This document shows positions 18,388 through 28,702 of a stretch of 33,825 nucleotides of DNA, one piece after another. Source of the stretch: Candidatus Atribacteria bacterium (lineage in GTDB: Bacteria; Atribacterota; Phoenicimicrobiia; Phoenicimicrobiales; Phoenicimicrobiaceae); assembly GCA_011056645.1 (NCBI GenBank), contig DSEL01000159.1, forward strand, positions 1 through 33,825. The letters run 5' to 3'. The notes beneath the pieces are model-generated. The model saw only the letters and a list, made by a program, of their open reading frames with translations, was not told the DNA's origin and made no database searches. The stretch's first letter is position 1, and each line of letters opens with the position of its first letter. The translations under genes were made by a program, and so were the position numbers.

Positions 18388-18416
18388 TTTTCAAATAATC
18401 AGATTTAGTATAAAAT
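18388..18416 (+). promoter_or_regulatory. Possible tRNA promoter
   Basis: TTTTCA (18388-18393), 17 bases, TAAAAT (18411-18416) just before tRNA-Gln at 18444. It is a moderate match; the tRNAs might instead be processed from the gltX transcript. Confidence 0.4.
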
Positions 18417-18443: not shown

Positions 18444-18517
18444 TGAGGGATCGTCTAGTGGTAGGACACCAGACTCTGGATCTGGGAGCGGTGGTTCGAG
18501 CCCACCTCCCTCAGCCA
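18444..18517 (+). tRNA. tRNA-Gln (anticodon CUG)
   Basis: Cloverleaf by eye: acceptor TGAGGGA/TCCCTCA, anticodon stem CCAGA/TCTGG with seven-base loop CTCTGGA (anticodon CTG), T stem GGTGG/CCACC with loop TTCGAGC, discriminator G and encoded CCA (18515-18517). It reads CAG only, so a UUG isoacceptor must exist elsewhere. Confidence 0.95.
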
Positions 18518-18571
18518 TTTTTGTTATTTTACTGGATATCTGGTTAGCTGGCAAATCGGTAAATAGGTTCC

Positions 18572-18646
18572 GGCGCAATCGAATAGTGGTTAATTCAGCT
18601 GGCTCTCAATCAGCAAACGGGGGTTCAATTCCCCCTTGCGCCACCA
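18572..18646 (+). tRNA. tRNA-Glu (anticodon CUC)
   Basis: Acceptor GGCGCAA/TTGCGCC, D stem GAAT/ATTC, anticodon stem GCTGG/TCAGC (one G-U pair) with loop CTCTCAA (anticodon CTC), T stem GGGGG/CCCCC with loop TTCAATT, discriminator A and encoded CCA (18644-18646). It reads GAG; a UUC isoacceptor for GAA must be elsewhere. Confidence 0.95.
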
Positions 18647-18770: not shown

Positions 18771-19241
18771 GTGAAAGATAACGAAATATTTTTAAGTAGA
18801 GAAGGATTAGAGAATTTAAGAGAAGAAATAAAGCACTTAGAAGGTGCAAAAAGAAAAGAGATACAAGAAGATATTAGCCGGGCATTAGAATTCGGAGATA
18901 TTACCGAGAATGCAGAATATAACCTTGCTTTGGAAGCTCAACGTATGAATGAAATAAGCATTGTTAGATTAAAGCAGAAGCTAAGCCGGGCAAAAGTAGT
19001 AAAAAAAGACCCCCCTTCAGGAGAGATTGGTATTGGCTCTATCCTAAAGCTTTTAAATTTAGATTCCGGAGAAGAAATTGAATATACATTTGTAACGGAT
19101 GATCAAATAGATTTTGCTCATAATAAGATATCGATCAGTTCTCCCTTGGGAAAGGCATTTTTAAATCACCGGGAAGGAGAAAGAGTTGAGATTGAAGTTC
19201 CTATCGGAATTTTAAGGTTTAAAATACTAAAAATTATTTAA
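18771..19241 (+). CDS. greA: Transcription elongation factor GreA
   Basis: Rescues backtracked RNA polymerase by stimulating transcript cleavage through its secondary channel. The 156 residues comprise an N-terminal antiparallel coiled coil (about 8-78) and a C-terminal FKBP-like globular domain. The acidic tip that coordinates the catalytic metal is GDITENAEY (Asp43, Glu46). GTG 18771 is the start, six bases after GAGG. The stop overlaps the ATG of the next gene by one base (TAATG), so greA and sua5 are probably co-expressed. Confidence 0.95.
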   Translation: MKDNEIFLSREGLENLREEIKHLEGAKRKEIQEDISRALEFGDITENAEYNLALEAQRMNEISIVRLKQKLSRAKVVKKDPPSGEIGIGSILKLLNLDSGEEIEYTFVTDDQIDFAHNKISISSPLGKAFLNHREGERVEIEVPIGILRFKILKII

Positions 19242-20263
19242 TGAAAACTAAAATATTAATAATAGATCCCAAGAGAATAGATTTTACTAAAATAAAAAAG
19301 GCTGCTGAGGAAATAAAAAAAGGTAATTTAGTAGCTTTTCCTACTGAAACAGTTTATGGATTAGGAGCGGATGGCCTGAACGAGAAAGCGGTGGCGAAAA
19401 TATTTCATGCCAAAGGAAGACCATTTAATGATCCTTTAATTGCTCATATTGCCGATATAAAAGAATTGTATAAATTGTCCAAGCATGTCCCCCCGATTGC
19501 CTTAAAATTAGCCAAAACATTTTGGCCTGGTCCTCTAACCTTAATCCTAAAAAAGTCTGAATTGGTTGCTGATATTGTTACCGCTGGTTTAGATACCATT
19601 GCAATTAGGATACCGGCGAACGATATCGCTTTAAGTTTAATTAGGGAAGCTAAAACTCCTATTGTTGCTCCCAGCGCTAATCTTTTTGGGAGGACAAGTC
19701 CGACCAATGCTCAACATGTAGCCGATGATTTAGGGGGAAAAATAGACATGATCATTAACGGAGGCAAAACTAAAGTAGGGGTAGAATCTACTGTTTTAGA
19801 TATAACTGTTGAACCTGCCCAGGTATTAAGGGCAGGGGGGATATCGATAGAAAAATTAAAAGAAATCATTGAACAGGTAAAAATAAGTATGGAGATAGAA
19901 GAAGGTTTTCGCTCTCCGGGGATGCTAAACAGTCATTATTCTCCTCAAGCAAAACTAATTTTAGTAGAAGAAAAAGAGGAAGGCGAAATAGAAGAAGTTC
20001 GTCAGCTGGCTTCTGAGTATAAAGCAAAAGGATTTAAAGTAGGGATAATGGCAAAAGGAGAAAATCAAAATGAATATAATGGATTTAAGGTTAAGGTAAT
20101 AGGCAAGAGCGCTGAATTAGAGAGATGTGCGGCAAATCTCTTTGCTATTTTAAGAAATTTTGATAAAGAAGGATATGAAATTATTATTGCTGAAGGATTA
20201 GAAGAACAGGGTTTGGGGTTAGCTATAATGGAGAGATTAAGAAAAGCAGCAGCTCCCAAATAA
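19241..20263 (+). CDS. sua5: L-threonylcarbamoyladenylate synthase, Sua5 type
   Basis: Makes threonylcarbamoyl-AMP from threonine, bicarbonate and ATP for the t6A37 modification of ANN-decoding tRNAs. The 340 residues are the long Sua5 form: an N-terminal YrdC/TsaC domain (about 1-205; FPTETVYGLGADGL, KGRPFNDPL, APSANLFGRTSPT, GVESTVLD) plus a C-terminal Sua5 domain (about 230-340) joined by the RSPGMLNSHYSPQA linker that gates the active site. The shorter TsaC lacks this second domain. No terminator follows before the aromatic-operon promoter. Confidence 0.94.
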   Translation: MKTKILIIDPKRIDFTKIKKAAEEIKKGNLVAFPTETVYGLGADGLNEKAVAKIFHAKGRPFNDPLIAHIADIKELYKLSKHVPPIALKLAKTFWPGPLTLILKKSELVADIVTAGLDTIAIRIPANDIALSLIREAKTPIVAPSANLFGRTSPTNAQHVADDLGGKIDMIINGGKTKVGVESTVLDITVEPAQVLRAGGISIEKLKEIIEQVKISMEIEEGFRSPGMLNSHYSPQAKLILVEEKEEGEIEEVRQLASEYKAKGFKVGIMAKGENQNEYNGFKVKVIGKSAELERCAANLFAILRNFDKEGYEIIIAEGLEEQGLGLAIMERLRKAAAPK

Positions 20264-20288: not shown

Positions 20289-20317
20289 TTGACAGAAAAG
20301 AAAGGTTATGCTAATAT
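20289..20317 (+). promoter_or_regulatory. Promoter of the aromatic amino acid operon
   Basis: A perfect TTGACA (20289-20294), a 17-base spacer, and TAATAT (20312-20317) with TG at 20309-20310 giving an extended -10. Transcription would start near 20324, a few bases before the Shine-Dalgarno of the leader peptide. Confidence 0.8.
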
Positions 20318-20344
20318 TTTAAAAAATGTTAAGGAGTAAGTAAG

Positions 20345-20440
20345 GTGGCAATAAATAATAAACTTGCTAAATTGATAAGTTTCTTTAATTATTATTTTTA
20401 TTACTATTATTCCACCGATGTTTATGCCTTAGCATCTTAA
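20345..20440 (+). CDS. Phe/Tyr-rich attenuator leader peptide
   Basis: A 31-codon frame from GTG 20345 to TAA 20438-20440. AAGGAG (20331-20336) lies eight bases upstream. Residues 13-22 read FFNYYFYYYY, and Tyr recurs at 27; there is no Trp. Such runs mark leader peptides whose translation speed reports charging of the matching tRNAs, as in pheL. The Tyr codons (20390-20410) end just before RNA segment A (20414-20429), and the stop codon lies 12 bases before segment C (20453). It is too short to be a normal enzyme and is followed by an intrinsic terminator and the genes for aromatic synthesis. The peptide itself is probably not functional. Confidence 0.88.
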   Translation: MAINNKLAKLISFFNYYFYYYYSTDVYALAS

Positions 20441-20549
20441 AAGGTAAACAATAAGATATCATAGGCATAGACATCGGTTTTATGCCTATGATATCTTTAT
20501 ATATTTTTATATAAAGGTCATAGGTTATTTAATTCCTATGACCTTTTTT
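20414..20549 (+). promoter_or_regulatory. Ribosome-mediated transcription attenuator of the aro operon
   Basis: Four pairings can be drawn. A:B is 20414-20429 with 20463-20478 (16 bp, one G-U). C:D is 20453-20469 with 20481-20497 (17 bp, perfect). The antiterminator D:E combines 20484-20492 with 20517-20525 and 20495-20503 with 20508-20516 (18 pairs including two G-U, two-base bulge). E:F is the terminator at 20513-20546. A:B and C:D share 20463-20469, C:D and D:E share 20484-20497, and D:E and E:F share 20513-20524, so alternate structures exclude each other. Inferred logic: stalling at Tyr/Phe codons leaves A free, A:B and D:E form, and transcription continues; a ribosome reaching the stop covers A, so C:D and E:F form and transcription ends. 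Confidence 0.82.
20513..20549 (+). terminator. Attenuator terminator hairpin
   Basis: AAAGGTCATAGG (20513-20524) and CCTATGACCTTT (20535-20546) pair perfectly over 12 bp around a ten-base loop; the T tract runs 20544-20549. It lies between the leader peptide and chorismate mutase. Confidence 0.85.
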
Positions 20550-20700
20550 ATTTTATAAGAATAGTTGTTTAAAAAGTGTAGGAACTCCATTGATCGAATA
20601 GAAAAACAAGAGAAATGTTATTGCACACTTTAATATGGTAGGCGGAGTAATATCAAATCGTATCAATGGGCTGTCCTCTAACAAGAAAAGAGGTGAGAGT
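20550..20700 (+). other. Untranslated leader between attenuator and aroH
   Basis: CCATTGATCGA (20587-20597) can pair with TCG-T-ATCAATGG (20658-20669, one bulged T), and AAAGTGT (20573-20579) with ACACTTT (20625-20631); the two cross and would compete. CCTCT (20675-20679) can pair with AGAGG (20689-20693), the aroH Shine-Dalgarno. No T-box consensus is present. Confidence 0.35.
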
Positions 20701-21096
20701 ATGTTAGTAAGAGGAATAAGAGGTGCTATAACGGGAAAGAGTAATACTAAAGAAGAAATTATAACAATCACCAAAGAATTGCTAATTGCCTTACAGAGAG
20801 AAAATCATTTTAAGATTGAAGAAATAGTAAGTGTGTTTTTCAGTGCCACTTCTGATTTAAATGCAGCTTTTCCAGCTCAAGCAGCACGAGAATTAGGCTG
20901 GGACCAAGTTCCCCTTTTTGATATGCAAGAAATCGAAGTCCCAGAGAGCTTGCCCAAATGTATTCGAATATTAATCCAGGTAAATTGCCAAAAAAGCCAG
21001 AGAGAAATAAAGCACTGTTATTTAAGGGGAGCAGAAATATTAAGAAAAGATTTAGTTAAAAAGAACCTCAATTTAAAGGAGAGTGATTCCAAGTGA
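20701..21096 (+). CDS. aroH: Chorismate mutase, AroH class
   Basis: Converts chorismate to prephenate, the first step toward Tyr and Phe. ATG 20701 is chosen because GAGGTGAG sits just before it and the protein then begins MLVRGIRGA like Bacillus AroH; an in-frame ATG at 20635 would add 22 unmatched residues. The 131-residue protein has the trimeric pseudo-alpha/beta barrel pattern. Catalytic positions are kept: Arg7, Phe57, Arg63, Glu77, Arg89, Tyr107 (Bacillus Glu78, Arg90, Tyr108). Bacillus Cys75 is Asp74 here (FDMQE). It is the first gene after the attenuator and overlaps the next by four bases. Confidence 0.93.
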   Translation: MLVRGIRGAITGKSNTKEEIITITKELLIALQRENHFKIEEIVSVFFSATSDLNAAFPAQAARELGWDQVPLFDMQEIEVPESLPKCIRILIQVNCQKSQREIKHCYLRGAEILRKDLVKKNLNLKESDSK

Positions 21097-22145
21097 TTAT
21101 AGTGATAAATGGCCAAACCAGCGAGTTTCATATAGAAAAAGTAGTGCAGAAGCTACGTGAAATGGGACATGAAGTACACATCTCTCGGGGAGAAAAACAG
21201 ATTGTTTTAGGAGTAATAGGTGATGTAGAAAATTTAAATTCAGTTCCTCTTTACGCCTATGACGGTGTAGAGGAAATTATTCCCATTGCAAAACCCTATA
21301 AGTTGGCAAGTAGGGAGTTTAAAAGTTTTGATACTATTGTAAAAATAAAGGACGTAATTATAGGCAGCAAAGAGGTGATAGTAATGGCTGGACCATGTGT
21401 GGTTGAAAATAAAAAACAGATATTTGAGACAGCAAAACAAGTAAAAGCTGACGGGGCAAAGATATTAAGGGGAGAAGCCTTTAAACCTCGTACATCCCCT
21501 TATAGTTTTCAGGGGTTGGAGGAAGAAGGTTTGAAGTTATTAGCTCAGGCGGGAGAGGAGGCAGGTTTACTAGTTGTAACTGAAGTGATGTCAGTTAACC
21601 AGATAGAATTAGTAGGTAAGTATACCGATATATTTCAAGTAGGTACTCGTAATATGCAGAATTTTATATTATTAAAAGAATTGGGTAAAATTAAAAAACC
21701 AATATTATTAAAAAGAGGAATGTCAGCTACTATAGAGGAGCTACTATTATCAGCAGAATATATTTTATCTCAAGGGAATTATGAAGTGATATTATGTGAG
21801 CGAGGAATTCGAACTTTTGAAAACTATACCCGCAACACTTTGGATTTAAGCGCAATCCCCGCATTAAAGAGGTTAAGCCATTTGCCGGTAATTGTAGATC
21901 CCAGCCATGCTACCGGGAAGTGGAGATTGGTAAGCGCAATGTCTAAAGCTGCTATAGCTGCAGGAGTGGATGGCTTGCTTATCGAAGTTCATCCTGACCC
22001 CAAAAATTCATTTAGCGATGGAGCTCAGACCTTAAAAATAGCTACTTTTGCTCAGTTGATGAGAGAACTTAAACCTATAGCTCAAGCAGTAGGTCGAGAA
22101 TTGAGTGCACCTATTGAAAAAGATTTAGAGAGGATGAAAAATTAA
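21093..22145 (+). CDS. aroF: 3-Deoxy-7-phosphoheptulonate (DAHP) synthase
   Basis: Condenses phosphoenolpyruvate and erythrose 4-phosphate, the entry step of the shikimate pathway. The 350 residues have an N-terminal ferredoxin-like domain (about 1-70; MIIVINGQTSEFHIEKVV), which in this type I-beta class gives feedback control by Tyr or Phe, and a KDO8PS-like barrel (about 80-340; AGPCVVE, RGEAFKPRTSPYSFQG, VGTRNMQNF, DPSHATGKW). GTG 21093 overlaps the aroH stop. With chorismate mutase as a separate neighbour, prephenate or chorismate inhibition as seen in fused enzymes is less likely than control through the ferredoxin-like domain. Confidence 0.95.
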   Translation: MIIVINGQTSEFHIEKVVQKLREMGHEVHISRGEKQIVLGVIGDVENLNSVPLYAYDGVEEIIPIAKPYKLASREFKSFDTIVKIKDVIIGSKEVIVMAGPCVVENKKQIFETAKQVKADGAKILRGEAFKPRTSPYSFQGLEEEGLKLLAQAGEEAGLLVVTEVMSVNQIELVGKYTDIFQVGTRNMQNFILLKELGKIKKPILLKRGMSATIEELLLSAEYILSQGNYEVILCERGIRTFENYTRNTLDLSAIPALKRLSHLPVIVDPSHATGKWRLVSAMSKAAIAAGVDGLLIEVHPDPKNSFSDGAQTLKIATFAQLMRELKPIAQAVGRELSAPIEKDLERMKN

Positions 22146-23435
22146 ATGGAGCTTGTTTTAGAAAAAGTAAACAAATTAAAAGGGAATATATTTGTTCCGG
22201 GAGATAAATCAATATCTCACCGTTCTCTAATTTTAGGTTCTATTGCTCAAGGAGAAACTCGAGTATACAATTTATTAAATTCCTTAGATTGCCAGAGCAC
22301 CTTAGAATGTATGCAATCCTTAGGAGTGAAAATAGATTTGGATATAAATAATTCTGTTCATATTGAGGGAAAAGGACTATATGGATTACAAGAACCAAAA
22401 ATTATCCTTGACGTGGGGAACTCAGGAACGAGTATTCGTCTTTTAACCGGATTACTTAGCGGACAAAATTTTTACTCTGTTTTAAATGGCGATAATTCAA
22501 TTAGGAAAAGACCCATGAAAAGAGTAGTACAGCCTCTTCGCTTGATGGGTGCAGATATTTGGGGGAGAGAAGAGGGTCATTTTGCTCCTTTAAGTATTAA
22601 GGGAAATAAACTTAACCATTTTCAATATACTTTACCAGTTGCCAGTGCTCAGGTGAAATCAGCTCTTCTGTTGGCTGGTCTTTATACTAGTGGGGAAACA
22701 GTAATTAGAGAACCTCTTTCCACCCGGGATCACACCGAAAGGATGTTAGAAATTATGCGGGCAGATATAAAGATTTCGTCTTCAGAAATTAAAATAAAAG
22801 GTGGAAAGGAATTAAGGAGTACTGATATTTTTATCCCCGGTGATATTTCTTCCGCGGCTTATTTCCTAGCAGCTGCTGGATTAATAAGAAATTCTAAAAT
22901 TACAATCAATCAAGTAGGGGTTAATCCAACCAGGACGGGAATCATTGAAATTTTTAAAAAAATGGGGACAAAGATTGATATCTTAAATTATCAGATACAA
23001 TCTAATGAACCTCGCGCAGATTTAATAGTAGAATGTTCAAAATTAAAAGGTGTAGGGATTAAAAAAGAAAGTATTCCTTTTTTAATCGATGAATTACCTC
23101 TTATTGCGGTAATAGCAACTCAGGCATATGGAAAAACATTGGTAAGCGGAGCGAGAGAACTAAGAGTAAAAGAGTCTGACCGGATACAAGCTATCGTTAG
23201 TGAACTAAAAAAAATGGGAGCCGATATTCATGAAAAAGAAGATGGCTTTATGGTAAATGGTCCCACAAGATTGAAGGGAGCAGTCTGTGAAAGTTATAAT
23301 GATCACCGAATTGCTATGTCCTTAGCAGTTGCCGCCCTATTGGCTGAAGGTAAAACTGTGATAAGAAATTCAGAATGTATAAATATTTCTTTTCCCAGAT
23401 TCGAAAAAATTTTACAGGATTTAATTGATTGGTAA
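22146..23435 (+). CDS. aroA: 5-Enolpyruvylshikimate-3-phosphate synthase
   Basis: Transfers enolpyruvyl from PEP to shikimate 3-phosphate. The 429 residues have the two-lobed inverse alpha/beta barrel pattern. Visible motifs are GDKSISHRS (Lys21, Ser22, Arg26), GNSGTSIRLL, RKRPMKRVVQPL, STRDHTERML, FIPGDISSAAYF and RVKESDRIQAI. The ATG is on the base after the DAHP synthase stop (TAAATG). The GNSGTSIR loop has Ser-Ile where glyphosate-sensitive class I enzymes have NAGT, as is usual for bacterial class II enzymes; that class assignment is by motif only. Confidence 0.95.
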   Translation: MELVLEKVNKLKGNIFVPGDKSISHRSLILGSIAQGETRVYNLLNSLDCQSTLECMQSLGVKIDLDINNSVHIEGKGLYGLQEPKIILDVGNSGTSIRLLTGLLSGQNFYSVLNGDNSIRKRPMKRVVQPLRLMGADIWGREEGHFAPLSIKGNKLNHFQYTLPVASAQVKSALLLAGLYTSGETVIREPLSTRDHTERMLEIMRADIKISSSEIKIKGGKELRSTDIFIPGDISSAAYFLAAAGLIRNSKITINQVGVNPTRTGIIEIFKKMGTKIDILNYQIQSNEPRADLIVECSKLKGVGIKKESIPFLIDELPLIAVIATQAYGKTLVSGARELRVKESDRIQAIVSELKKMGADIHEKEDGFMVNGPTRLKGAVCESYNDHRIAMSLAVAALLAEGKTVIRNSECINISFPRFEKILQDLIDW

Positions 23436-23492
23436 TCGTTATATTGAAGAAAGTATAAGTAATTACTATCAAAAATTAAGAGGGGAATGCAA

Positions 23493-24398
23493 ATGAAAAA
23501 AGAAATAAATGGAAAGACTGAAATAATAGGCGTAGTTGGAAAGAATATAGAAAATAGTCTTTCCCCACTTATTCATAACCAGATAATAGATAGATATTCT
23601 TTAAATTTTTGTTATCTGCCTTTTCAAGTAGCAGAAATCAATTTGGGTAACGCTATCCAAGGGATAAGTGCTTTAAATATAAAAGGTGTAAATGTTACTT
23701 TTCCCTATAAAGAGAAAGTAATTAAATTTTTAGATAAAGTGGAAGAATCAGCTCGAAGGATTGGGGCGATAAATACAATTGTCAATGATAAAGGGAATCT
23801 TACAGGTTACAATACCGATGTAATTGGTTTCAAGAAGAGCCTGCAGGAAGAAGGAAAATCTACAGTAAAAGGGAAGAAAGCAATTATTTTAGGAGCGGGA
23901 GGAGCTGCCCGTGGAGTGATTTACGCCCTTCTAGAGGAAAAAATTGAAGAGATAACTATCTTCAATCGAACTTTAGAAAGAGCTAAGAAGATCAAACAAG
24001 ATTTTTCTAACTTTTTTCCCAAGAGCTGTATTAGAGCATTTTCCTTAGAAGAAGAAAATATAAAAGATAAAATAAGAAGAGCTCATTTTCTGGTTAATAC
24101 TACTTCTTTTGGAATACCCCCTCAAATTGATAAAACACCTTTACCAAATGAAAAATTATTTCATCCCAACCTCTTAGTTTATGACCTTATTTATCATCCC
24201 ACCAAAACTCTTTTTTTAAGACAAGCAGAGCAGGCGGGAGCAAAAATAATGAACGGTTTACCGATGTTGGTCTATCAAGGGATAGAAAGTTTCTTTCTTT
24301 GGACTGGTATTAAAGTAGAAGGGAAAGAAGTTATAGAAATGATTAGAAAAATTGAATTTTTACAAAATATTGACGACCAACAGATAACGACTATTTAA
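23493..24398 (+). CDS. aroE: Shikimate dehydrogenase
   Basis: NADP-dependent reduction of 3-dehydroshikimate to shikimate. ATG 23493 is preferred over ATG 23487 because AGGGGA (23481-23486) touches the first ATG but is six bases from the second; this gives 301 residues. The N-terminal catalytic domain has NSLSPLIHN and GVNVTFPYKEKV with the catalytic Lys, NTIVNDKG and GYNTD; the nucleotide-binding domain has ILGAGGAARGV and NRTLERAK, the Arg/Lys pattern of NADP-specific enzymes; the end has GLPMLVYQG. Confidence 0.95.
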   Translation: MKKEINGKTEIIGVVGKNIENSLSPLIHNQIIDRYSLNFCYLPFQVAEINLGNAIQGISALNIKGVNVTFPYKEKVIKFLDKVEESARRIGAINTIVNDKGNLTGYNTDVIGFKKSLQEEGKSTVKGKKAIILGAGGAARGVIYALLEEKIEEITIFNRTLERAKKIKQDFSNFFPKSCIRAFSLEEENIKDKIRRAHFLVNTTSFGIPPQIDKTPLPNEKLFHPNLLVYDLIYHPTKTLFLRQAEQAGAKIMNGLPMLVYQGIESFFLWTGIKVEGKEVIEMIRKIEFLQNIDDQQITTI

Positions 24399-24416: not shown

Positions 24417-25565
24417 ATGCTAAGGTTTCTTGATGCGGGAGAATCTCATGGCAAATGTTTGTTGGGAATAATAGAGGGCTTACCGGCAGGATTTTGCATA
24501 AACCAAGAAAAGATCAATATTAATCTGGCTAGGCGACAAGGAGGTTATGGTAGAGGAAATAGGATGAAGATTGAAAAGGATCGAGTTGAAATATTATCGG
24601 GATTAGTAGAAGGAAAGACCATAGGAAGCCCCCTTGGTCTATTGATAAAAAATAAAGACTGGGAAAATTGGCAAGACAAAAAAATTCCTTCTTTAAGCAT
24701 TCCCCGGCCAGGTCATGCAGATTTTGCCGGAGCAATAAAATATGGATTTAAAGATGTGAGGAAAGTCTTAGAGAGAGCCAGTGCTCGACAGACGGCTATG
24801 AGAGTAGCAATAGGTTCAATAGCACAACAATTTTTGGAAGAATTTAATTTAAATATTTATAGTTATACATTACAGATAGGTCAGATAAAAGCATCGAGGA
24901 CTACTACTTTTAATCCCAAGATTAGAGCTGAAATTGATAAATCACCTGTATATTGCATAGATGAGAAAGCATCAACCGGAATGTGCAGAGAAATTGACCG
25001 TACTCGGGAAACAGAAGATACTTTAGGGGGAGTATTTGAGGTAGTAGCCACCGGCGTTCCAATCGGTTTAGGAAGTTATGTCCAATGGGATAGACGTTTA
25101 GACGCTCATTTAGCTTCAGCTCTTATGAGTATTCCAGGAGTAAAGGCAGTAGAGATCGGTGAAGGAATAAAGATTTCAGGGGAAAAAGGTTCGGATGTTC
25201 ATGATGAAATTTTTACTAAGATAGAAACAAGAAAAAAATTCTGCCGCTATTACCGAAAGACTAATCGAGCTGGTGGCATTGAGGGCGGAGTGACCAATGG
25301 AGAAGAAGTTATAATTAGAGCTTATATTAAACCCATACCTACTTTGATTAATCCCCTTTATTCTGTTGATTTTTCCAGCAAAAAGGAAACAAAAGCATTA
25401 TATCAAAGATCTGATATCTGTATTGTCCCTGCGGCCAGTATAGTGGGAGAGGCAGTAACTGCTTGGGAAATAGCGATTGCTTTTTTAGAGAAATTTAGCA
25501 GTGATTCTTTAGGGGAAATAAAAGAGAATTATGAAAATTATAAGGAGCGACTCCAAGAGGTATGA
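24417..25565 (+). CDS. aroC: Chorismate synthase
   Basis: Converts EPSP to chorismate with reduced FMN as a catalytic cofactor. The 382 residues carry the three family signatures: GESHGKCLLGIIEGLPAG near the N-terminus, the central ERASARQTAMRVAIG (about residues 119-133), and RAGGIEGGVTNGE toward the C-terminus (about 280-292). Length matches the bacterial monofunctional type without a flavin reductase domain. AGGGAG lies upstream of the ATG, and its stop overlaps the aroK ATG by four bases. Confidence 0.96.
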   Translation: MLRFLDAGESHGKCLLGIIEGLPAGFCINQEKININLARRQGGYGRGNRMKIEKDRVEILSGLVEGKTIGSPLGLLIKNKDWENWQDKKIPSLSIPRPGHADFAGAIKYGFKDVRKVLERASARQTAMRVAIGSIAQQFLEEFNLNIYSYTLQIGQIKASRTTTFNPKIRAEIDKSPVYCIDEKASTGMCREIDRTRETEDTLGGVFEVVATGVPIGLGSYVQWDRRLDAHLASALMSIPGVKAVEIGEGIKISGEKGSDVHDEIFTKIETRKKFCRYYRKTNRAGGIEGGVTNGEEVIIRAYIKPIPTLINPLYSVDFSSKKETKALYQRSDICIVPAASIVGEAVTAWEIAIAFLEKFSSDSLGEIKENYENYKERLQEV

Positions 25566-26074
25566 GAAAAAATATCATTATTACCGGATTTATGGGAACC
25601 GGCAAGAGTGTTACAGCTAAAGAATTAGCTCAAAGATTAGAAATGGAATTTATAGATATGGACCGGGTAATTGAAGAACGCCAGGGGGCGAGCATCGCGG
25701 ATATTTTTGATAGATATGGGGAAAAATATTTTCGAGAACAAGAGAATATATTAGTAAGAGAACTTTCTCTACAAGAAAATTTAGTTATTGCTACTGGTGG
25801 AGGTACATTTCTTAATCTGGATAATATTAAAACAATGAATCAAGAGGGGAAGGTAATTTGTCTTTATGCTACCCCACAGGCTCTTTATAGTCGCTTAGAG
25901 AAAAAGAATAATCGTCCACTCATAAAAGGAGATAATCTTTTAAACAAAATAAATCATTTATTAGAAAGGAGAAAGAAAATATACGAAAGTTTCGATTATA
26001 AGATTAATACTTCTAATCTTAGCGTTCAGGAAGTCGTAGATAAAATAGTTACACTTTTGAAATTGGAAAGGTGA
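25562..26074 (+). CDS. aroK: Shikimate kinase
   Basis: Phosphorylates shikimate at O3 using ATP. A 170-residue NMP-kinase-fold protein: Walker A GFMGTGKS (Lys15), shikimate-binding DMDRVIEE (Asp34, Arg35) and YFREQE (Arg58), the Walker B-like ATGGGTF (about 77-83), and the lid with NRPLIKG. The ATGA overlap with aroC and a four-base gap to aroB fit tight co-translation. Confidence 0.95.
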   Translation: MRKNIIITGFMGTGKSVTAKELAQRLEMEFIDMDRVIEERQGASIADIFDRYGEKYFREQENILVRELSLQENLVIATGGGTFLNLDNIKTMNQEGKVICLYATPQALYSRLEKKNNRPLIKGDNLLNKINHLLERRKKIYESFDYKINTSNLSVQEVVDKIVTLLKLER

Positions 26075-26078
26075 ATAA

Positions 26079-27182
26079 GTGAAAGAAATAAAAGTAAAAA
26101 TTATAGAAGATAAAGAATATAGAGTAATTATAAAAAGAGGGATTCTCAGCAATTTAACTGATCATTTATCGGGAATAATAAAAAATAAAAAGGTTATTGT
26201 AATTACTAATCCTTTGGTACATGATCTATATGGAACTAAACTATTATCCGTTTTGAAAAAGGGTCAATTTAACTATGATTTAATAGAAATACCTGATGGA
26301 GAAAAATACAAGTCTCTATCTACCGCAAATTATCTCTATGATGAATTATTAAAAAAGAAAGTAGACCGAACCACAGCTCTTATTGCTTTGGGAGGAGGAG
26401 TAATAGGAGATTTAGTTGGATTCGTAGCTTCTACCTATATAAGAGGCCTACCTTTAGTACATATTCCTACTACTCTTTTATCTCAGGTAGATAGCAGTAT
26501 TGGGGGAAAAGTTGCAGTTGATCATCCTTTAGCTAAAAATATTATTGGGGGCTTTTATCAACCAAAGGCAGTTTATGCCGACCCTGAAGTTTTGCAGACC
26601 CTATCAGATAAGGAAATAAAAAATGGAATTGTAGAGGCTATAAAGATTGCAGTTATTAAATCTCCAACTTTCTTTAAATGGTTTGAAAGAAGTATTGATC
26701 AGCTATTTAAAAAAAGGGAAGACTTGCTATGTAAACTGGTTAAAGAAGCTGTTTCTCTAAAAGTAGAAATAGTTTTGCAAGATCCCTGGGAAAACGGGTT
26801 ACGCAAAATACTTAATTTTGGTCATAGTATTGGACATGCCCTGGAAGCAAGATCAGGATATCAAGGTTTAAGTCATGGTGAGGCAGTAGCTTTAGGTATG
26901 CTAATCGAGACTAAAATAGCTAGGAATAGAGGGATGTGTTCGGAAGAGTTTAAAGAAAAAATTAGTAAAATACTGTCATTTCTAGGAAAATACGAATCAA
27001 TATTTGAATATATTAAAAAAATAGACTACAAACAGTTCTGGGAAACCCTAACTTTAGATAAAAAAAACTATTCAGGCCATATGACATTTATTTTACCGAA
27101 AGATATAGGGAAAGTGTGTTTAATTGATAATATTACTAAAGAAGAAGTAATGAAAAGTATAGAAGAAATAAAAAAGGAGTGA
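26079..27182 (+). CDS. aroB: 3-Dehydroquinate synthase
   Basis: NAD- and metal-dependent cyclisation of DAHP to 3-dehydroquinate. The 367 residues show DGEKYKS and ALGGGVIGDLVGFVAST for NAD binding, HIPTTLLSQVDSSIGGK, and metal ligands Glu186 (GIVEAIK), His249 (FGHSIGHALE) and His266 (LSHGEAV), with the same spacing as E. coli 184/247/264. GTG 26079 follows GGAAAGGTGA. Its stop lies in the leader of aroQ. Confidence 0.95.
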   Translation: MKEIKVKIIEDKEYRVIIKRGILSNLTDHLSGIIKNKKVIVITNPLVHDLYGTKLLSVLKKGQFNYDLIEIPDGEKYKSLSTANYLYDELLKKKVDRTTALIALGGGVIGDLVGFVASTYIRGLPLVHIPTTLLSQVDSSIGGKVAVDHPLAKNIIGGFYQPKAVYADPEVLQTLSDKEIKNGIVEAIKIAVIKSPTFFKWFERSIDQLFKKREDLLCKLVKEAVSLKVEIVLQDPWENGLRKILNFGHSIGHALEARSGYQGLSHGEAVALGMLIETKIARNRGMCSEEFKEKISKILSFLGKYESIFEYIKKIDYKQFWETLTLDKKNYSGHMTFILPKDIGKVCLIDNITKEEVMKSIEEIKKE

Positions 27183-27187
27183 AGATT

Positions 27188-27640
27188 ATGTTAAAGATAG
27201 GAATAATTAATGGACCAAATTTGAATATGCTGGGAAAAAGGGATCAAAAAATTTACGGAAATTTAACCTTAGAAGAAATGAATCATAAAATTGAATCCTT
27301 TGCCAAAGAGGAAGATATTGAACTAACAATAAAACAGTCAAATTCTGAGGGAGAGATTATTGATTCTATTCAGTATTTTTCTTCCCAAGTAGATGGTTTA
27401 ATTATTAATCCGGCAGCTTATACCCATTATAGTTATGCGATTGCCGATGCTCTTAGAGACTGTTCGATTCCCACAATTGAAGTTCATCTTTCTGATATAT
27501 TTTCTCGAGAAGACTTTCGGAGGAAATCAGTTACAGCTTCTGCTTGCACGGAACAGATTGCTGGATTTGGATATCAGAGTTATATTCTTGCGATATATGC
27601 TCTTAAGGATTTAGTAAAGAACAAACAAGGAAAAAAATAA
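27188..27640 (+). CDS. aroQ: 3-Dehydroquinate dehydratase, type II
   Basis: Dehydrates 3-dehydroquinate to 3-dehydroshikimate by the dodecameric type II mechanism. ATG 27188 is preferred over GTG 27179, since AAGGAG (27174-27179) is eight bases upstream and the protein then begins MLKIGIINGPNLNMLG as the family does (150 residues). The catalytic Tyr is in KIYGN (Tyr23); further motifs are INPAAYTHYSYAIADAL and EVHLSDIFSREDFRRKS. It completes the set of seven shikimate enzymes in the operon. Confidence 0.95.
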   Translation: MLKIGIINGPNLNMLGKRDQKIYGNLTLEEMNHKIESFAKEEDIELTIKQSNSEGEIIDSIQYFSSQVDGLIINPAAYTHYSYAIADALRDCSIPTIEVHLSDIFSREDFRRKSVTASACTEQIAGFGYQSYILAIYALKDLVKNKQGKK

Positions 27641-27757: not shown

Positions 27758-28630
27758 ATGGAAGAAGAAAGTGACTTTAATATTCACATGATAAGTATTA
27801 TTGGTGTAGGCCTAATCGGTGGATCATTGGGATTGGCTTTAAAAAAAAAGAAGCCGAATTTCAAAATTATGGGAATAGATAAACCAGGAATAATCGATAG
27901 AGCACTTGCCCGAGGCGCTATTGATGAAGGGGCAATCAATCTCGAAGAAGGATTAAAAAAAGCAGATGTAGTAATTTTATCCACTCCAGTAAAAACAATT
28001 TTAGACTTATTGACCCAAATTAATCCCTTTCTTAAGAGAGGATGTCTGGTAACTGATACAGGCAGTACCAAAAGACAAGTAGTAGAAAAAGCTACTGAAG
28101 TATTATCTAAAGATGTTTTCTTTATTGGTGGACACCCCATGGCCGGCTCTGAAAAATATAGTATAGAGGAAGCTAATTCTCAACTCTTTAATGATAAAAC
28201 CTATATCTTAACTCCTACGAATAAAAATAATTTAATTGCGCAGAAGAGAATGTTTTTATTGATCAAAACGATCGGTGCAAAAAAATTAATATTAGATCCT
28301 CAAGAACATGACAAAATTATCGCTGCAATAAGTCATTTACCTCAAATTTTAGCAGTTTCTCTCACCAACATGATAAGCAAGCTTATTCAAGAAGAAAATG
28401 ACCAACATTATTTTAAAGTAATAGGAGGAGGGTTTAAAGATATGACTAGAATAGCTTCTAGTCCTTACAAAATGTGGGAGGATATTTGTCAAACCAATAA
28501 AGAAAATATTTTAAGTTCTATACAGGAATTTAGAAATTATCTTGAAGCAATAGAAGAAAAACTCAAAAATGATCCAGGCAGTTTGAAAGAAGAATTCCAA
28601 AAAGCAAGCAAGTTAAGAGAAACTCTTTAA
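27758..28630 (+). CDS. tyrA: Prephenate dehydrogenase
   Basis: NAD(P)-dependent oxidative decarboxylation of prephenate to 4-hydroxyphenylpyruvate, the committed step to tyrosine. The 290 residues have an N-terminal Rossmann domain (ISIIGVGLIGGSLG, Gly16-x-Gly18-x-x-Gly21; DKPG ends the second strand), then GGHPMAGSEK and ISHLPQILA in the catalytic helical region and GGFKDMTRIASS. No ACT domain follows, so feedback inhibition would not be through ACT; the attenuator may supply the tyrosine control. As last gene of the operon it ties tyrosine synthesis to the Tyr-rich leader. Confidence 0.94.
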   Translation: MEEESDFNIHMISIIGVGLIGGSLGLALKKKKPNFKIMGIDKPGIIDRALARGAIDEGAINLEEGLKKADVVILSTPVKTILDLLTQINPFLKRGCLVTDTGSTKRQVVEKATEVLSKDVFFIGGHPMAGSEKYSIEEANSQLFNDKTYILTPTNKNNLIAQKRMFLLIKTIGAKKLILDPQEHDKIIAAISHLPQILAVSLTNMISKLIQEENDQHYFKVIGGGFKDMTRIASSPYKMWEDICQTNKENILSSIQEFRNYLEAIEEKLKNDPGSLKEEFQKASKLRETL

Positions 28631-28672: not shown

Positions 28673-28702
28673 TTGACAAGGATATTATATTTATGTTAAA
28701 AT
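28673..28702 (+). promoter_or_regulatory. Promoter of the GntR-led cluster
   Basis: A perfect TTGACA (28673-28678), 18-base spacer, TAAAAT (28697-28702) with TG at 28694-28695 (extended -10). It separates this cluster from the aromatic operon. Confidence 0.75.

Follow-up and report, generated by a model that had tools for sequence, protein, structure and literature searches.

The locus described here raises the question of how an uncultured bacterium might set the expression of its whole aromatic pathway. It lies on contig C159 of an Atribacterota MAG (2.25 Mb, 97% complete), in a stretch of 33,825 nucleotides that we call the window, where nine biosynthetic genes follow a short leader region. 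The original prediction, made from the letters of the window alone, described this region as a Phe/Tyr-rich leader peptide with an attenuator. Our results indicate that the leader very probably switches the whole pathway on when charged tyrosine and phenylalanine tRNA is low.

The operon and its surroundings

All nine genes are on the forward strand and matched their NCBIfam families; together they make chorismate and the tyrosine precursor. They are aroH (monofunctional chorismate mutase, 20701-21096; TIGR01796), aroF (DAHP synthase of the B. subtilis type, 21093-22145), aroA (EPSP synthase, 22146-23435), aroE (shikimate dehydrogenase, 23487-24398), aroC (chorismate synthase, 24417-25565), aroK (shikimate kinase, 25562-26074), aroB (3-dehydroquinate synthase, 26079-27182), aroQ (type II 3-dehydroquinate dehydratase, 27179-27640), and tyrA (prephenate dehydrogenase, 27758-28630). 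The start of aroH is most likely at 20701 and not at the ATG at 20635, since only residues from 25 onward of the longer frame fall within the family match. The DAHP synthase of this type is present in a single copy in the genome.

Terminator-like matches inside the operon did not exceed the frequency in shuffles. For promoters, the highest-scoring site 3' of the leader was at 28673, past tyrA. The gene order from aroH to tyrA was kept in all relatives with contigs long enough to tell. The proposed control of the whole pathway, and not only of a terminal branch, thus agrees with the gene content: all steps to chorismate are encoded, together with aroH and tyrA, and relatives keep the same arrangement.

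The leader region is flanked by a tsaC-like gene (19241-20263) upstream and by aroH on the other side. The predicted consensus promoter with an extended -10 was present by sequence match on the forward strand (sigma-70-type, 20289-20317): TTGACA begins at 20289 and is followed by a 17-nt spacer and TAATAT with the extended TG. Most relatives had similar TTGACA and TATGxTAxT-like boxes in the leader alignment. Further upstream, two tRNA genes occupy 18444-18643, flanked by a gene for a Glu/Gln-type tRNA synthetase and by greA; an 83-aa ORF at 18415 overlaps both and is probably spurious.

The pheA gene lies outside the operon and adjoins ilv/leu-type genes behind a T-box. About ten T-boxes were found on other contigs of this genome (L210-L218), at sites that include the ilv/leu-type genes beside pheA and several aminoacyl-tRNA synthetase-like genes, and the genome probably mixes T-boxes with peptide-leader attenuation. 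On L210, a sub-threshold match to the Guanidine-I riboswitch (2494-2611; 50.3 bits, gathering threshold 63) lies between a T-box and an ilvB-like gene.

Leader peptide, alternative stems and predicted switching

The leader contains a translatable ORF rich in codons for the end product of the operon. Translation of the frame and alignment of its homologues gave a 31-aa peptide with a GTG start (MAINNKLAKLISFFNYYFYYYYSTDVYALAS; 20345-20440, forward strand), preceded at 8 nt by the Shine-Dalgarno sequence AAGGAG (20331-20336); both the 31-codon frame and its good ribosome-binding site had been foreseen. The control codons FFNYYFYYYY fall at residues 13-22 (20381-20410), exactly as claimed. The codon make-up is seven Tyr against three Phe, with Phe at codons 13, 14, and 18, in the early part of the run. 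None of 1000 dinucleotide shuffles of the region yielded a run with nine of ten residues Phe or Tyr in a frame of at least 15 aa, and in the window this was the sole sense-strand short frame of such kind, even at seven of ten.

Six segments of the forward strand make up the structural part of the leader. Segment A (20326-20348) covers the Shine-Dalgarno and start region and is complementary to segment 1 over 21 bp in three blocks. Segment 1 (B in the lettering of the his attenuator chain; 20412-20435) is at the end of the ORF, and its positions 20414-20429 pair with segment 2. Segment 2 (C; 20453-20478) can pair with 1 or 3, segment 3 (D; 20481-20503) with 2 or 4, and segment 4 (E; 20508-20524) forms an antiterminator with 3 or a terminator with 5. 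Segment 5 (F), with its T tract (20535-20549), is the 3' arm of an intrinsic terminator at 20513-20546.

The original prediction spoke of four mutually exclusive stems. Four overlapping stems were found, of 16 bp (1:2, 20414-20429/20463-20478), 17 bp (2:3, 20453-20469/20481-20497), 16 bp as 7 + 9 (3:4, 20485-20503/20508-20524) and 12 bp (4:5, 20513-20524/20535-20546, then the T tract), the last being the 12-bp intrinsic terminator already proposed. Only neighbors exclude each other, however: 1:2 is compatible with 3:4, and 2:3 with 4:5. The intrinsic terminator (20513-20549) thus stands between the leader ORF and the first structural gene and is excluded by an antiterminator, both being conserved; hairpins 2:3 (C:D) and 3:4 (D:E) are additional to the first stem and the terminator and lie between them, as in a his-type chain. 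The minimum free energy of the leader RNA was -75.4 kcal/mol (z = -9.1 vs. shuffles). The leader had no Rfam match at the gathering threshold, T-box included. The T-box covariance model (RF00230) matched elsewhere in the genome and not at the leader locus, and a T-box here was rejected.

Switching was examined by partition-function folding, at equilibrium, of only the RNA ahead of the ribosome. With the ribosome front at a stall on Phe13 to Tyr20, the combination 1:2 + 3:4 had a probability of 0.93-0.99 for transcript ends at 20526-20536, before segment 5 is made. The front at Tyr21 gave a mixed state. With the front at Tyr22, Tyr27, or the stop codon, 2:3 had a probability of about 0.9 and 3:4 of 0.31-0.43, and 4:5 then reached at least 0.91. 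The switch point therefore lies where the aromatic run ends, and the on/off logic expected from ribosome-masked folding was recovered: a stall at the control codons gives antitermination, and completion gives termination. The two global states are nearly equal (-40.1 and -39.8 kcal/mol, 0.3 kcal/mol apart). When the ribosome footprint alone was masked and A:B was free to pair, the full-length fold showed no switch; at full-length equilibrium the terminator wins regardless of the ribosome, so that the switch must be kinetic, with the choice made during transcription.

In the reading that we consider highly likely, the leader acts as a ribosome-mediated transcription attenuator and monitors how fully tRNA-Tyr (mainly) and tRNA-Phe are charged; the codon content suggests that both would be sensed. 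Termination itself, ribosome stalling, tRNA sensing, and the default state are inferred here from computation. Slowing of the ribosome on codons 13-20 would leave segment 1 free to form 1:2, which would release segment 3 to pair with 4; this antiterminator would block 4:5, and RNA polymerase would continue through aroH-tyrA. A ribosome that reaches the end of the leader would cover segment 1, so that 2:3 would form, segment 4 would pair with 5, and transcription would stop at about 20549. If no ribosome is loaded, the Shine-Dalgarno/start region would pair with segment 1 and favor 2:3 + 4:5. This pairing of segment A with segment 1 would make termination the default state without translation. 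Despite the 21 bp of A:B in the window leader, the growing RNA without a ribosome still passes through the antitermination state (1:2 + 3:4, at 20526-20536), and default termination may therefore leak.

Conservation and a sister element before a predicted tyrosine importer

The leader was first traced in relatives by DNA similarity and then by a covariance model, and the search revealed 16 homologous leaders in two families, f1 and f2. Parts, conservation, covariation, and energetics were all computed. The aromatic run and all four stems were kept across the 16 leaders. Helices 1:2 + 3:4 were paired in 96.4% of the cells (24-54% in slid controls), and helices 2:3 + 4:5 in 96.6%. The latter had seven doubly changed pairs and 25 such cells, a result matched by 0 of 500 shuffles; with only two families among the relatives, these changes go back to a small number of events. 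One chain of columns, 73-105-146-170, takes part successively in 2:3, 3:4, and 4:5: f1 leaders have T-A-T-A or T-A-T-G there, and f2 leaders have C-G-C-G, as does L018, an f2-like second leader copy in genome G006. A substitution that runs in this way through segments 2-3-4-5 is what mutually exclusive stems would demand. Both the aromatic run and the alternate stems were thus conserved in the alignment of relatives, with covariation through four segments. Antisense covariance matches at the leader sites were discarded as palindrome artefacts.

The intact leaders that were read in f1 and f2 kept a Phe/Tyr run without Trp, mostly with more Tyr than Phe; L018 is dominated by Phe. The N-terminus of the peptide drifts among relatives, and the aromatic run is kept in all intact leaders. 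The C-terminus is a near-constant DVYALxS that overlaps segment 1, and the alignment shows conservation of both the ORF and its start signals.

Segment A would be the sixth segment of the chain. In f1 leaders, its pairing with segment 1 (A:B) was present in 98.4% of the cells, with zero double changes, and the duplex had z values of -3.3 to -7.6; L011 had a weak A:B (z -0.9). For the majority of the f2 leaders tested, segment 1 instead had the start-codon region GATGCTAAGG as its partner. Such pairing would occlude the Shine-Dalgarno sequence in f1 and the start codon in f2. Segment A, if real, would couple translation initiation to the switch; its pairing is similar to that of the A:B stem in the his attenuator.

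Within f1 and f2, every leader is either in a genome that has aroF or at the end of a contig; genomes that lack aroF otherwise lack the leader. Some f2 genomes have two aroF copies in the aro region (L045, at 4885 and 6001; G020, contig C11). The search for aromatic leaders ahead of aroF also covered families f4-f7 of the phylum and gave just weak frames here and there, none of them convincing. A related leader with similar stems (L135, ...SSYYFFYFIPEVNAFGDW; G017 contig C33, 10353-10495) precedes an M20-type peptidase-like gene.

Through weaker covariance matches, we reached leaders like MKIEIQSTNKTINNYYYYYYYYYYYYPEGVYA that precede an ABC importer, one component of which is an ABC_sub_bind protein. 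These importer leaders, upstream of the ABC_sub_bind gene (L148-L151, L153-L161, L163), mostly have 6-13 Tyr codons in the run. Where the upstream sequence is long enough, almost every importer locus of f1 and f2 carries the sister leader; no convincing aromatic leader was found upstream of f4-f7 importer loci, and the importer is absent from the genome of the window (G000). In eight f2 copies of the sister element, the four stems were paired in 98-99% of the cells, with slight covariation.

The binding protein of the importer resembles TrpX, below the TrpX cut-off, and its best solved relative is CD0873 of C. difficile, a tyrosine-binding protein in which Glu-263 contacts tyrosine. At the Glu-263 position, Ala is reported for the relatives that bind Phe and Trp, and the Trp-binder has Gln elsewhere. 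By our own column assignment, the importer protein has Asp aligned to Glu-263 and Tyr where the Trp-binder has Gln. The predicted substrate is tyrosine: the Tyr-run leader gives this prediction, and the binding-site residues are independently consistent with it.

We also surveyed 80 aroF loci from many phyla. Phe/Tyr-rich short frames with a terminator-like hairpin numbered 18 on the sense strand vs. two on the antisense strand. Eleven of the 18 were outside Atribacterota (L041, L043, L051, L053, L056, L082, L087, L098, L100, L104, and L108), in Chloroflexi, KSB1, Spirochaetes, Caldithrix, Clostridiales, Phascolarctobacterium, and one further bacterium; each of the eleven lies no more than about 600 nt from the aroF that it precedes.

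Other readings of the leader were weighed against these results. An attenuator might sense translation of the leader in general, through any slowing or through loading via A:B, with the aromatic run a by-product of A/T-rich DNA. The region is A/T-rich, and the occlusion of the Shine-Dalgarno sequence or start codon fits such a sensor. However, the run persists in every intact leader while the N-terminus drifts, shuffles of the region failed to produce it, the sister element before the tyrosine-type importer has its own Tyr codons, and aromatic runs with terminators precede aroF in other phyla with the strand bias given above; we regard this reading as very unlikely. Still less credible is control by a direct binder (a T-box, a tyrosine-binding RNA, or a regulatory protein) with an irrelevant ORF. 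The end of the ORF and the alternate stems overlap at the very place where a ribosome would exert its effect, the ORF and start signals are conserved, and the leader fits no Rfam family, even though the same genome has about ten T-boxes.

The switch may also work as described and act mainly on tRNA-Phe, as in aroR of C. glutamicum, which answers Phe and not Tyr though it holds both, according to the account in PMC11802643. The early Phe codons and the Phe-dominated L018 point the same way. Most leaders nevertheless have more Tyr than Phe, tyrA is the last gene of the operon, pheA is elsewhere behind a T-box, and the importer leaders are Tyr runs, which makes a mainly tRNA-Phe response rather unlikely. 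An attenuator that reads mainly tRNA-Tyr is the reading that we carry forward.

Relation to known systems and biological meaning

The attenuators of E. coli pheA, pheST, and trp have fewer segments and control a terminal branch or a synthetase. They share with the Atribacterota leader a leader peptide, alternative stems, and a terminator. The his operon attenuator of E. coli and Salmonella also has a long run of control codons and alternative helices that form a chain; in both, one more hairpin stands between the first (pause) hairpin and the terminator (described for his in PMC1183508). Unlike it, the Atribacterota leader has Tyr/Phe codons, its control codons lie between segments A and 1, and its segment A is the ribosome-binding region. 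The T-box control of tyr/aro genes in Firmicutes also reads tRNA charging and acts by transcription termination, but that RNA binds tRNA directly, and the aro leader has no T-box.

Two elements are partial precedents. In C. glutamicum, aroR is a Phe-Tyr-Phe leader before an aroF operon, with ribosome-mediated attenuation (Neshat 2014, as related in PMC11802643); it likewise joins a Phe/Tyr leader peptide to a DAHP synthase operon, whereas in that account it has Phe-Tyr-Phe only, responds to Phe and not Tyr, and belongs to a different phylum. The uORFC-13-1 motif of Acholeplasma combines a uORF containing Phe codon(s) with a terminator, likewise ahead of aroF (PMC8632094); its structure and taxon differ, it has at least one Phe codon and not a Tyr run, and its basis is computational only. 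A 2005 survey of Actinobacteria reported no conserved RNA regulatory structure before tyrosine or phenylalanine operons. The novelty first supposed for this element is thus narrowed: the open-access literature yielded no tyrosine-run attenuator and no Atribacterota leader-peptide case, while aroR and uORFC-13-1 anticipate part of it. Leader peptides before aroF are not new, and the Atribacterota leader is a well-supported further case, whose reach is broad and whose sixth segment is unusual.

There is perhaps an even chance that all of the following hold together: a Tyr-specific attenuator family of Atribacterota, with a switching segment at the ribosome-binding site, controls both the shikimate/tyrosine operon and an importer, and Phe/Tyr attenuation of aroF is widespread and overlooked. 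Most descriptions of attenuation by peptide leaders concern terminal branches and come from a few phyla. Phe/Tyr leaders before aroF in further phyla would offer a cheap marker for genome mining. If our reading is true, a single leader would control all of the common aromatic pathway in this uncultured phylum, amid T-boxes for other amino acids.
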